From contig JAUVGH010000021.1 of NCBI GenBank assembly GCA_030593885.1, positions 1 to 33,858 of the forward strand: DNA of 33,858 nt, written 5' to 3'. The position numbers and the translations under genes are program-made. Each line of letters begins with the position of its first letter. Within the stretch, counting starts at the first letter, position 1. A model generated the notes under the pieces. It did no database searches. It was not told where the DNA came from and was given only the letters and a program-made list of their open reading frames with translations. Source of the DNA: Methanomassiliicoccales archaeon. GTDB lineage: Archaea > Thermoplasmatota > Thermoplasmata > RBG-16-68-12 > SOIM01. Below, piece after piece: positions 23,370-29,233 of this stretch.

Positions 23370-26300
23370 ATGATGATTGAGGTGGGAAGCCACCGAAAGA
23401 GGGGGATGATGCCTCATCTAGGTTTTCAGCCCAAGATGGTCGGTCGAGAGGACGAACTAAGCGAGCTGCAGACTTATTTGGACAAGGCTGCAGCAGGGCA
23501 AGGCCGCACCGTATTCGTTTCGGGCGAAGCTGGGATAGGAAAGACGAGACTGGTGAATGAGCTGAAGCAGCTTGCTCAATCCCAAGGTTTCCAAATCCTC
23601 TCAGGAAACAGCATGTACGAGTCTCTGACGCCCTTCATGCCCTTCATTGAGGCTCTCAGGTCGGCAGGTCTCGAATCCCTGTTTGCGGAAGAGACGCCTA
23701 GGGTCGAGGCGGTCTTCCTCGTGACACACACCGGTCTGCTGATCAAAGAGATCACGAGACGAGAAACGAAGCTCAATCCAGACATTTTCTCCTCTATGCT
23801 AACTACTGTGAGCAACTTCGTCAAGGAATCCCTATCCATACTCTTGGGAGAGGACAAGGATGGAGCATTGAACACTCTGGGATATGAGAACTATCGAATT
23901 CTCCTAGAGAGCGGAAGGAGCGCCAGCCTCGTGGTGATTATGAGCGGGAGGGAGAACGAATTCCTAATCAATGATATGAGGGAGATCTTCCTGAGGGTTG
24001 ACAAGAAGTACGGAGGTATGCTGGAGGATTGGGACGGAGACGGTGAGAAAATCGATAGTATCGAGAAACTCCTCGAACCTCTAATCACTTCGGGAAAGTA
24101 TGATGGCATCTATTACGGAAAGGAGGATCCCAAGGCAAGAAGGAACCTATTGTTCGAGAACGTGTCAATGGGACTAGCCAGGCTTGCACAGAAAGCACCA
24201 GCGCTCCTGTGCATCGAGGACCTGCAGTGGGCAGATCCATCTTCATTAGCTTTGGCGCACTACATCGCCAGAAACACGAGGGAGCACGGTTTGCTGATTC
24301 TGGGCACCTATCGGCCGGAGGATGTTACAGCAAATGAAGGCAATGGTCATCTTCTCATTGAAACCATGCAGTTGATGGACCGTGAGGGTCTGAACGAAAG
24401 GATGAAGCTCAAGAGATTGCCCGAAGAGTGCATGGTCGATTTCTTATCTTCCCTTCTTGGGAAGATTGACTTGGATGAGGAATTCACAAATAGTATCTAC
24501 AAGGAGACAGAGGGGAACCCGCTGTTCATGATAGAGCTTGTCAAATTCCTTGAGGAAGAGGATTACTTCGAGAACAGAGAAGGAGTCTGGATATTGGCGA
24601 AGAATCTCGAAGACGTCAAAATCCCTTCTAAGATATATAACGTGATAAAGAGAAGATTGAACCGATTGGGCAGTGAAGACAGAGAGATTCTGGACTATGC
24701 TTCTGTCATTGGTGAGAACTTCACATCAACGATACTAGTTGAGGCTTTGGGTGTTGAAAGAATCCAATTGTTGGAGCAGTTGAGGGTCCTAGAGCAGACC
24801 CATCGATTGATTCAACCTTCCAATGGAAGTTATAGATTCGACCACGCGAAGATTAAAGAAGTCGCGTACGGTGAAATACCAGAGGAATTGAGGAGGGAAT
24901 ATCATTCAGTCGTCGCAAACTCGATTGAAACACTGAATAAGGGCAACATGGATAAGGTGATTGGAGACCTGGCCTTCCACTACTTCCGATGCCCGGATCG
25001 TAGGAGAGCTCTACCATACTTCCTAAAGGCTGCGGAGAGGGCCAAGGATCGGTTCGCGAACGCCGAGGCGATCCGGTTCTATGGCGAGGCGTTGAAACTC
25101 GAAGAGGACGTTGAGGGAAGGCTAGCTTCCTTTGAGGCGCTGGGCTCTGTCTACAGGTTGATGGGAGACTACGAAAGAGGCTTGGAATCCTACCGCAGCG
25201 CGTTGGAATTGGCGCAAGAGAAGAAAAAGAGGGCGGAGATCCTGGCTAGGATCGGGGGGGTTCACTATAGTGGAGGAGATTATGATGAATCCATGAGCAG
25301 CTTCACGGAGGCATTGGGCTACGCCGAAGAGGAGGGGTCAATGGAGGAGGCACTTGCACTCCGTGGAATCGGCAATGTTCATCTTGCACGAGGGGACTAC
25401 GACCGGGCCCTCGAGTACTACGAAAGGAGCCTAGTGATGAGTGAGAAGATGGGGGATGAGAAGGGCATCGGGGGCACCCTGAACTGCATCGGCGTTGTCC
25501 ATAGTAGTCGAGGGGACTGCGACCGGGCCCTCGAGTACTACGAAAGGAGCCTAGCGATGAGCGAGAAGATTGGAGACCGGGCGGGTATCATGACCACCCT
25601 GAACAACATAGGCGTTGTCCATCATACACGAGGGGACTGCGACCGGGCCCTCGAGTACTACGAAAGGAGCCTAGCGATAAAAGAGAAAATCGGAGACCAA
25701 GAGCGCATCGCGGCCACCCTGAACAACATCGGCGAAGTGCATCGAGTTCGAGGGGACTACGACCGGGCCCTCGAGTACTTCGAAAGGAGCCTAGCGATAC
25801 GAGAGAATATCGGAGACCAGGCGGGCATCGGGGGCACCCTGAGCAACATCGGCGTTGTCCATCATAATCGAGGGGAGGACGACCGGGCGTTGAAGTACTA
25901 TGGTAGGGCAGTTGTGATTTCGGAGAGAATCGGCAATCAGGAGTACCTTGGAGAACATCTCCATAACATCGGCATTGTCCATAAGGAACGAGGGGACTAT
26001 GACCAGGCCCTCGGATATTTCAGGAAAGGTCTCTCGATATGGGAGAAGCTCGAAGTGCAGTGGGAGATATGCAACACATACTGTGAAATCGCGGAAGTCC
26101 ATCTTGAGAAGAGAGAGTTGGAGAAAGCCCAGGAGTTCTGCAACCTGGCCGCTTCGATCTCCGCTGAAGTTCATAACAGGAAACTCTCCGCCATGTCAGG
26201 GAGGATTTCTGGAATGGTCTATCGCGAATGTGAGACGTGGAAGGAGGCCACGAACAACTTCGAGGAGAGTATCAAGGCCTTCGAGGACATGGGAGAAAAG

Positions 26301-26501
26301 CTTGGAGAAGCCGAATCGCACTACGAGTTCGGATTGATGTGGAAGGCCAAAGGGGATGCTGACAAAGCGAAAGAGCATCTGAACAAGGCGCTTAAGGTTT
26401 TTGAGGAATTGAAACTAGAGAGGAATGCCGAAAGAGCGAGGGAAGCGTACAAGAGCCTCCCCACAGTGCGTCATGTGAACGCTCGTGGTAAAGGCGGATG
26501 A
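23370..26501 (+). CDS. STAND-type AAA ATPase with inserted sensor-like domain and TPR array
   Basis: A 1043-residue soluble protein. A start of NTPase domain MVGREDELSELQTYLDK is followed by Walker A GEAGIGKTR (residues 52-60) and Walker B LLCIEDLQWADP (279-290); TYRPEDV follows as sensor 1. Between the two motifs, at about residues 112-225, sits an extra domain (VFLVTHTGLLIKEITRR to GGMLEDWDGDG) that ordinary members lack and that resembles small longin/roadblock-like sensory folds. A winged-helix-like region (about 430-500) precedes about 13 TPR-like repeats (about 560-1035), several nearly identical. STAND proteins are signal-triggered switches, often controlling transcription or stress responses. 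The following GTPase gene starts 4 nt after the stop. Starts at 23370 or at the double ATG 23406/23409 are possible; a TTTTTATC box A at about 23350 favours the latter. Confidence 0.8.
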   Translation: MMIEVGSHRKRGMMPHLGFQPKMVGREDELSELQTYLDKAAAGQGRTVFVSGEAGIGKTRLVNELKQLAQSQGFQILSGNSMYESLTPFMPFIEALRSAGLESLFAEETPRVEAVFLVTHTGLLIKEITRRETKLNPDIFSSMLTTVSNFVKESLSILLGEDKDGALNTLGYENYRILLESGRSASLVVIMSGRENEFLINDMREIFLRVDKKYGGMLEDWDGDGEKIDSIEKLLEPLITSGKYDGIYYGKEDPKARRNLLFENVSMGLARLAQKAPALLCIEDLQWADPSSLALAHYIARNTREHGLLILGTYRPEDVTANEGNGHLLIETMQLMDREGLNERMKLKRLPEECMVDFLSSLLGKIDLDEEFTNSIYKETEGNPLFMIELVKFLEEEDYFENREGVWILAKNLEDVKIPSKIYNVIKRRLNRLGSEDREILDYASVIGENFTSTILVEALGVERIQLLEQLRVLEQTHRLIQPSNGSYRFDHAKIKEVAYGEIPEELRREYHSVVANSIETLNKGNMDKVIGDLAFHYFRCPDRRRALPYFLKAAERAKDRFANAEAIRFYGEALKLEEDVEGRLASFEALGSVYRLMGDYERGLESYRSALELAQEKKKRAEILARIGGVHYSGGDYDESMSSFTEALGYAEEEGSMEEALALRGIGNVHLARGDYDRALEYYERSLVMSEKMGDEKGIGGTLNCIGVVHSSRGDCDRALEYYERSLAMSEKIGDRAGIMTTLNNIGVVHHTRGDCDRALEYYERSLAIKEKIGDQERIAATLNNIGEVHRVRGDYDRALEYFERSLAIRENIGDQAGIGGTLSNIGVVHHNRGEDDRALKYYGRAVVISERIGNQEYLGEHLHNIGIVHKERGDYDQALGYFRKGLSIWEKLEVQWEICNTYCEIAEVHLEKRELEKAQEFCNLAASISAEVHNRKLSAMSGRISGMVYRECETWKEATNNFEESIKAFEDMGEKLGEAESHYEFGLMWKAKGDADKAKEHLNKALKVFEELKLERNAERAREAYKSLPTVRHVNARGKGG
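25381..25980 (+). repeat. 120-bp tandem repeats encoding near-identical TPR units
   Basis: Five consecutive 120-bp units (40 codons each) inside the STAND gene. The first four (25381-25860) are almost identical over long stretches: CGAGGGGACT, then GACCGGGCCCTCGAGTACT and GAAAGGAGCCTAG, recur at the same offset. The fifth (25861-25980) is more diverged. Conservation extends to synonymous positions, pointing to recent tandem duplication or gene conversion, and copy number may vary between strains. Encoded unit: about GDYDRALEYYERSLAMSEKI. Confidence 0.85.
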
Positions 26502-26505
26502 GTCA

Positions 26506-27381
26506 ATGGTGGTAAAGAAAAAGATCGTCCTTTTGGGCGACAGCGCAGTTGGGAAGACCAGTCTCATTCGGAGATATGTTCTAGATCAATTCGAGGAATC
26601 CTATACATCAACCATCGGGAGCAAGGTCAGGATGAAAGAACTTGTCGTTCAAGGGCCAGACGAGGACGTGAATCTTACCTTCATGATTTGGGATCTGATT
26701 GGCAGAGAAGGATACCATGCCTTGCATGCCAGAACCTTCGTGGGCGTCCACGGTGCCATTCTGGTGGCTGACTTGACCAGGAAGGAGACCCTGGGCAGCC
26801 TGGAGCGGTATTGGATTCCATTCCTCTTCAAGGTCGTCGAGAATGTACCTTTGGTCTTTGTCTGCAATAAATCGGACCTGGAGGAGCAGTTCGAGTTCGA
26901 GCCAGAGGACTTGGCGGTTCTGGCGTCGAGATACAATGTAGGCCTGGACAAAATCCTCCCGACGTGGCTCAAGTCAAGCTACGCCACAAGCGCAAAAAGC
27001 GGGAGGAATGTTGAGGCAGCCTTCGAAAGCCTTGGACATATGATCCTTTGCAGTAGAGAGCTAGCAGACCCAGTGAAAGAGCTCTATCAAAGCGTTGTCG
27101 CCACAGGCCTTCGGAGATCTTCGGAGAAGACGACTGCAATCGGTGCACTGGATGCTATCATGGTGGATTTCTGCGAGGGGTTCGAGGATTCGAGGCTGGC
27201 GATGCCGATACTGCGTCAGGAAATGGCTAGGGCTAGCATCGGTGTGAACAAACCGACCAAAGGGGGGATTCTCGAAGTTGTCGAGTACCTGGCAGAGGCT
27301 GAGAACGAGTTTAAGGATGAGAAAACAGTGGTTGCCAATATGAAAAGAAGGCTGAAATGGGCCGACAGCATAGTTGAGTGA
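26506..27381 (+). CDS. Ras-like small GTPase with C-terminal extension
   Basis: A 291-residue protein. Residues 1-180 are a Ras/Rab-like G domain: G1 GDSAVGKTS (11-19), switch I Thr36 in YTSTIGSK, G3 WDLIGREGY with Asp63 and Gly66, G4 NKSD (121-124) and G5 SAK (162-164). The residue after Gly66, where Ras has the catalytic Gln61, is Arg67, so intrinsic GTP hydrolysis may be slow or need a partner. Residues about 185-291 are a helical extension not seen in simple Rab-like proteins. There is no prenylation motif. ATG 26506 comes 4 nt after the stop of the STAND gene; an in-frame GTG at 26485 overlaps that gene. The tight coupling suggests that GTPase and STAND protein act in one signalling pathway. 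Confidence 0.85.
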   Translation: MVVKKKIVLLGDSAVGKTSLIRRYVLDQFEESYTSTIGSKVRMKELVVQGPDEDVNLTFMIWDLIGREGYHALHARTFVGVHGAILVADLTRKETLGSLERYWIPFLFKVVENVPLVFVCNKSDLEEQFEFEPEDLAVLASRYNVGLDKILPTWLKSSYATSAKSGRNVEAAFESLGHMILCSRELADPVKELYQSVVATGLRRSSEKTTAIGALDAIMVDFCEGFEDSRLAMPILRQEMARASIGVNKPTKGGILEVVEYLAEAENEFKDEKTVVANMKRRLKWADSIVE

Positions 27382-28420: not shown

Positions 28421-28581
28421 AGCTCTTCTGAGTTGATAGCCAGCACCGGAAAACTATTAATCCGCATCAGTCCATACGCTCTGCCAGTCATCCTACAAAG
28501 TATGATTCTAATGATGACGGCGCCGAGGGGGGGCGTTCACGAAGTACCCATGGGCCCTTGATCTGGGAAGGAGGTGAATAC

Positions 28582-29085
28582 ATGGATCGAAAAATGATAT
28601 TCGCGCTGATAGCCGCAACCATCTTCAGTCTTTCGATAAGTGCGGTGGTTATCGCTCCTTCGCCAACGAGAAATGATCCGCTGCCGGACCACAAATTCGT
28701 GGTCGAGATCGACGGAATAGCATCCTCTGGGTTCACGCTCGTTGAGGGGATCAGATCCACGACAGATGTCATCGAGTACAGAGAAGGGAATGAGAACGAT
28801 GTACGATACCTGCCTGGATTGACCCGAGTCGGAGCACTGACCCTGCAGAGGGGATTGACGGAGAACTCGGAACTGTGGGACTGGTACAAGGAGTTCAAGA
28901 GCGGGCTTGGCACAAGGCGTGCTATGTCCATCATAATCCAAGACCACTCCCGCAACGAGAGGGTCAGGTTCAATTTCCAGGAGTGCTTCCCGGTGCAGTA
29001 TGAGGTCCTACCGCTGGACTCAACGCCTGGCGGCACGGCCACTGAGGAGTTGGAAGTGGTGTGCGAGAGGATGGACTGGGCGTGA
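28582..29085 (+). CDS. Phage/contractile-injection tube protein (gp19-like) with signal peptide
   Basis: A 167-residue protein. Residues about 5-25 form a hydrophobic signal sequence after MDRK (MIFALIAATIFSLSISAVVI). The mature part, from about residue 33, is a clear gp19-type tail tube domain: HKFVVEIDGIASSGFTLVEG, TDVIEYREGNENDVRYLPGL, ALTLQRGLTENSELWDWYKE, MSIIIQDHSRNERVRFNFQ and EELEVVCERMDWA match the strands, the EYREG...LPG loop and the RG..ENSELWDW motif of tubes in T4-like phages and extracellular injection systems. Those tubes are normally made without a signal peptide. AAGGAGGTGA lies 4 nt before the ATG at 28582 (the frame opens at 28558). No sheath, baseplate, terminator or protease gene is near. 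It may build extracellular tubes or be a lone derivative; function unknown. Confidence 0.8.
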   Translation: MDRKMIFALIAATIFSLSISAVVIAPSPTRNDPLPDHKFVVEIDGIASSGFTLVEGIRSTTDVIEYREGNENDVRYLPGLTRVGALTLQRGLTENSELWDWYKEFKSGLGTRRAMSIIIQDHSRNERVRFNFQECFPVQYEVLPLDSTPGGTATEELEVVCERMDWA

Positions 29086-29233
29086 AACGCCATTCGTTTC
29101 ATGTTCGTCCTGCCCCAGCTTCAGCGAGAGCGACATTGCGACAGGGTCAGGGTCGACAGCGCTGAGATGGCATAGTCCGCCCGAATGGGATTCCAAAGGC
29201 TTTAAGATTCCAGAACAGCATTCGCCCCCCATC

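Follow-up and report, generated by a model that had tools for sequence, protein, structure and literature searches.

We describe an archaeal gene that, judged from its sequence, is an orphan encoding a complete tube domain behind an added N-terminal segment, and that forms a single clade with three relatives, all four being preceded by a shared leader. The relatives have the same design and the same control region, which suggests that a part of an injection machine has been put to new use at the cell surface. The reading that we favour, with moderate confidence, is that an inner-tube protein of a contractile injection system (CIS) was exapted, in a single event, as a surface protein that is exported and possibly tethered to the membrane.

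The window, by which we mean the whole stretch of DNA analysed (33,858 nucleotides), is an entire contig (C50) of a 2.14-Mb, 86%-complete MAG with 91 contigs (G000). The gene, hereafter SP-gp19, lies on the + strand at 28582–29085 and encodes 167 amino acids. It starts at an ATG at 28582, behind the Shine–Dalgarno sequence GGAGGTGA (28570–28577, +), and its stop codon ends at 29085, where a consensus scan alone marks a terminator-like stem-loop (29079–29091, +). A gp19-type tube domain had been claimed in the preliminary description, and the profile search proposed there bore this out. PF06841 matched residues 36–164 with an E value of 2.6e-30 and 105 bits (cut-off 28.2), covering profile positions 2–133 of 134, and TIGR02241 matched with an E value of 6.7e-28 and 97 bits, above its cut-off of 62.4. 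The CIS1 (NCBIfam NF053769; E = 9e-16, 58 bits) and CIS5 (NF053770; E = 7e-22, 78 bits) equivalogs stayed below their cut-offs of 220 and 260, and the PHROG tail tube profile matched at 4.5e-10. An AlphaFold2 model, predicted as a single chain from an alignment of 63 rows, has a mean pLDDT of 88.8, mostly above 90 in the domain, which spans residues 37–164 (28690–29073, +). Its best solved-structure match is the CIS tube chain 7adz (TM 0.70/0.82, E = 1.4e-10), and it also fits tube chains from the Algoriphagus, Anabaena, Streptomyces, PVC and AFP systems. The strong matches in a sequence search of the PDB were all injection-system tube or tube-like proteins (best 3.7e-10).

The protein had initially been labelled a tail-tube protein; the tube assignment stands, whereas the trees and the plasmid and phage searches replace a phage-tail origin with the CIS branch. 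By sequence, its nearest kin are the tubes of bacterial CIS, not those of phages. In a tree of 95 gp19 rows, the four SP-gp19 proteins form one clade (support 93/86) that adjoins the CIS tubes of plasmids and Pelotomaculum, and the clade has support of 96/91 in a 27-row tree; these trees are limited by few columns and long branches. CIS tubes encoded on plasmids reach up to 44% identity to the window protein (the top match being from a Cereibacter plasmid), and the Cereibacter, Rhodococcus and Nostoc matches belong to CIS clusters that also encode a sheath and a baseplate. A phage origin was rejected, with no tblastn match among 50,697 phage records and the trees placing the clade with CIS tubes.

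Inner tubes of extracellular CIS (Pvc1/Afp1 and Pvc5/Afp5 types) share the fold, the families (PF06841, TIGR02241) and the EYREG...LPG motifs of SP-gp19 and provide the best solved-structure matches. By contrast, SP-gp19 has an added hydrophobic N-terminus and a shared archaeal leader, and lacks sheath, baseplate and cap genes nearby. The T4-type phage tail tube protein gp19 shares its Pfam family and its fold with SP-gp19 (5w5f, E = 7e-5), but is more distant than the CIS tubes, and phage genes are absent around SP-gp19. Hcp of type VI secretion also has a similar tube fold, with a weaker fold match (6bdc, E = 7e-7), and leaves the cell; it does so through its own machine, without a Sec signal. 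We further compared the 26 positions conserved in 80% or more of the CIS tubes, of which the window protein retains 19, G424 21, G414 15 and G403 12. A CIS-invariant Asn (window position 85) is replaced by Pro or Ala in all four proteins, while the EYREG and LPG motifs and the domain length are retained. This pattern fits a fold that has been kept with the loss of some contacts.

The domain is preceded by a segment of 26 residues (28582–28659, +), delimited from the sequence of the four relatives and composed of MDRK, a hydrophobic stretch (residues 5–25) and Ala25-Pro26. The stretch, MIFALIAATIFSLSISAVVIA, comprises 21 residues without charge or proline and has a mean hydropathy of 2.47. All four SP-gp19 proteins have a positively charged start and a long hydrophobic segment, which ends in an invariant Ala-Pro. 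We saw no clear signal peptidase I site by eye, with Pro directly following the conserved Ala; owing to this and to its length, the segment could at least as well be an uncleaved signal anchor. The segment may therefore be an export or membrane-anchor element, either a cleaved signal or an anchor, and the 'classical signal peptide' of the preliminary description was slightly overstated, being right about the hydrophobic N-terminal segment and not about a clear cleavage site. Archaeal type IV pilin-like (class III) signals carry [KR][GA] just ahead of the hydrophobic segment; no such signal was found in the four proteins, which have DRKM, SRRI, KKSV and KRSI at this place. In G424, the sequence behind the segment, GGRV-DPYRNFNFRVEIDGI, aligns with the first residues of the Rhodococcus tube, MATGERV-DPYRNFNFLVEIDGI, which indicates that the segment was added onto a complete protein. 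A hydrophobic N-terminus was absent from ~115 other gp19 open reading frames of viral contigs, plasmids and bacteria, some of them redundant. Viral-contig relatives were rejected as the source of the exported form, the segment being present at none of 80 loci: L055 appeared to match from residue 7 onwards but has no hydrophobic segment at its N-terminus, and in L079 the hydrophobic stretch is located ahead of the start codon.

When 400 genomes of the class were searched with PF06841, six proved to have gp19. The SP-gp19 layout (charged start, 20–22 hydrophobic residues, Ala-Pro and tube domain) occurs in three genomes besides that of the window, two from other families of the same order (G424 and G414) and one from another order (G403), with proteins 37–39% identical to the window protein. 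Thus, a check for a conserved orphan state found orphan, segment-bearing gp19 in three further genomes, and the segment, whose loss in close homologues would have told against the original proposal, is kept in all three nearest homologues. No tail genes were found within the 8–19 kb read around each of these genes, and no sheath was found in the three genomes. In G414, the Shine–Dalgarno sequence is followed by ACG, and there is no ATG, GTG or TTG at the expected start of the segment, making the N-terminus of this protein less certain. SP-gp19 is rare, occurring in 3 of the 37 genomes of the order, which was searched completely.

The other gp19 genes in a wider sample of the phylum are either neighbours of phage-type tail genes or the orphans of G217 and G246, which lack the segment. 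These two genomes carry orphan tail-sheath-like genes (L137:8916–10433 in G246 and L136:9382–10116 in G217) and, on other contigs, orphan gp19 genes without an export segment (L049:8479–8982 and L050:11666–12169). Two related acyl-CoA-synthetase-like genes recur here, one or the other adjoining each of these sheath-like and gp19 genes, and no further tail genes were found around them. G403 has a second, non-exported gp19 adjoining a Pvc16-type gene (PF14065, 3.2e-31) at L042:8327–9479, a tube-and-cap pair in a genome in which no sheath was found.

A conserved 5' leader is common to all four SP-gp19 genes. In the window it extends to the start codon (28520–28581, +), and the comparison of the shared leaders delimits two parts, GCGCCGAGGGGGGGCGT (28520–28536, +) and AAGTACCC (28542–28549, +). 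Directly upstream of all four genes, the layout is GCGCC-RAG-n3-GGGCG-n6-AARTACCC-n18/20-(Shine–Dalgarno)-start, with GGAGGTGA as the Shine–Dalgarno sequence in three genes and GCGGGTGA in G424. This layout is fixed although identity to the window protein does not exceed 37–39% in the other three. The leader has no Rfam match at gathering score and chance matches only below it, and a known riboswitch is ruled out at that score. We searched for its hairpin motif, GCGCC[AG]AGGnGGGGCG[CT], with at most one mismatch in sampled stretches amounting to 676 kb for G403, 344 kb for G000 and less for other genomes. In the G403 sample, the motif lies ahead of SP-gp19 and six other genes (L043:2081, 3946 and 8750; L184:7771, 10708 and 15960; L146:10136). 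Five of these six genes begin with ATG and a signal-peptide-like N-terminus, and the sixth (L184:14798–15850) encodes a hydrophobic N-terminus with an ambiguous start; two of the six encode DUF7901 proteins. A weaker copy on L143 precedes another gene with a signal-peptide-like start, and no second copy was found in the 344 kb sampled from the genome of the window. With up to one mismatch allowed, five repeats of a second-order Markov control gave zero matches; first-order controls at two mismatches gave ~5 matches per repeat, so that looser copies are not safe.

A similar leader, GCGCCGAGGAGGGGCGC-n6-AAGTACCC, occurs on a viral contig (L200:3592–3621) ahead of a gene named SnoaL-like by eye. 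The leader is thus not limited to exported proteins and is no pure secretion signature. This contig also has terminase- and portal-like genes. RNAalifold proposed a stem together with a pairing of UACC and GGUG that covers the Shine–Dalgarno sequence, with a covariation term of zero. As the hairpin hardly varies, covariation is no evidence for or against an RNA fold, and a DNA operator and an RNA element are equally possible. We consider the leader a putative, previously undescribed element ahead of SP-gp19 and other exported-protein genes.

In the exaptation that we favour, a CIS inner-tube subunit would have been captured once by archaea of this class, separated from its machine and provided with an N-terminal export or anchor segment. 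As is general for Sec signals, this segment would take the chain through Sec, placing the domain outside and the charged end inside, and the exported domain would then be released or held by its hydrophobic helix. The leader may place SP-gp19 under common control with exported proteins, given that its hairpin also precedes other exported-protein genes in G403. Self-association of the domain into tube-like rings at the cell surface is plausible, given that the tube fold and the majority of the CIS-conserved positions persist; sheath, baseplate and injection would have no part in this role. A more specific picture, in which N-terminal helices hold hexameric rings in the membrane or a hollow filament is secreted, co-expressed in either case with leader-marked exported proteins, is a tentative suggestion. 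Points against an exported exaptation are the rarity of SP-gp19, the start in G414, the 12 of 26 positions in G403, the incompleteness of the MAGs, the leader before the SnoaL-like gene on L200 and the lack of a second leader copy in the 344 kb sampled from the genome of the window.

The partial loss of CIS-conserved positions, greatest in G403, could instead point to a lone domain that does not self-assemble, with the tube fold kept only as a stable β-barrel scaffold for surface binding. The lack of a partner gene conserved beside all four would suit such a domain, but the preserved EYREG and LPG motifs and domain length argue against it, and we consider it unlikely.

More doubtful still is a hollow surface filament, in which the protein would be secreted, freed by signal peptidase and polymerised outside the cell into a sheath-less tube. 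It would resemble the cannulae of Pyrodictium in function with an unrelated fold: the secreted archaeal protein CanA forms hollow extracellular fibres (PMC12326000), but differs from SP-gp19 in fold and family, and its filament is established where that of SP-gp19 is hypothetical. Besides this precedent, the export segment and the retained tube fold speak for a filament, as does the phage tube protein SPP1 gp17.1, which polymerises alone (PMC8718954); NBD2 gp39 is reported to do the same (PMC6466441). However, what holds for some phage tubes does not hold for Hcp: this protein, the closest of the tubes studied apart from their machines, requires the tail tip for polymerisation (PMC8718954). 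Moreover, SP-gp19 has no clear cleavage site, and the substituted Asn and the loss of several other conserved positions also weigh against a filament.

SP-gp19 was probably gained recently in this lineage, as indicated by an empty site in congeners and its absence from all four other genomes of the family. Its neighbours in the window encode a DUF34/NIF3 protein and an Orc1/Cdc6 protein with a winged-helix domain. In the same-genus genomes G001 and G002, these two genes adjoin without gp19 (Cdc6 97–98% identical); homology ends at the NIF3 stop codon (28420) and restarts near 29175, leaving a stretch of approximately 28421–29174 that is missing there. The empty site also shows that SP-gp19 is chromosomal and not misbinned. 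A mobile element at the insertion was rejected, with short, imperfect repeats only, and no neighbour is common to all four SP-gp19 genes. DUF835 is found near SP-gp19 in the window and in G414, and adjoins Cdc6 without gp19 in the congeners. The gene content of the window, namely DUF835 and the Orc1/Cdc6 protein with its winged-helix domain, marks the organism as archaeal. Elsewhere in the window, a gene for a Ras-like small GTPase with a C-terminal extension (26485–27381; PF00071, 1.4e-28) lies directly behind one encoding a 1043-aa AAA/TPR protein (23370–26501). Recent gain, sporadic distribution and the lack of partner genes would also be expected if a captured CIS or prophage had left a decaying remnant whose hydrophobic N-terminus arose by chance. 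However, four families have the same kind of segment, the Ala-Pro and the leader, the frames are intact and the proteins form a single clade, which makes this very unlikely.

Because the window is an entire contig, a tail cluster outside it could be sought only by a genome search. No tail genes were found around SP-gp19 in the window, and neither a second gp19 nor a sheath gene was found elsewhere in the 86%-complete MAG. The orphan state claimed in the preliminary description is thus upheld, and the tail or injection cluster that would have contradicted it did not appear in this search for gp19 and sheath. Nor was there a sign of an extracellular CIS gene cluster (sheath, baseplate and spike), as judged from the searches for sheath genes in the four SP-gp19 genomes and for tail genes near SP-gp19; the MAGs are 81–94% complete, so a CIS cluster may have been missed. 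The scattered orphan genes of G217 and G246 and the tube gene beside the Pvc16-type gene of G403 would suit a scattered CIS with its other genes elsewhere or in the missing part of a MAG, but no sheath was found in any of the four SP-gp19 genomes, and a subunit sent out of the cell could not be incorporated into a cytoplasmic tube, which makes this the least probable explanation.

A search of the open-licence literature yielded no account of an export signal on a gp19 or Hcp protein, and none of a comparable archaeal orphan. The usual view of tube proteins is that they belong to contractile machines and are cytoplasmic. Under the favoured exaptation, a clade that retained the tube fold, lost the machine and acquired an export segment would clearly exemplify the reuse of such a part at the surface. 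SP-gp19 makes it testable whether an exported domain of this kind forms rings or tubes, and the shared leader offers a handle on jointly controlled exported proteins in uncultured archaea.
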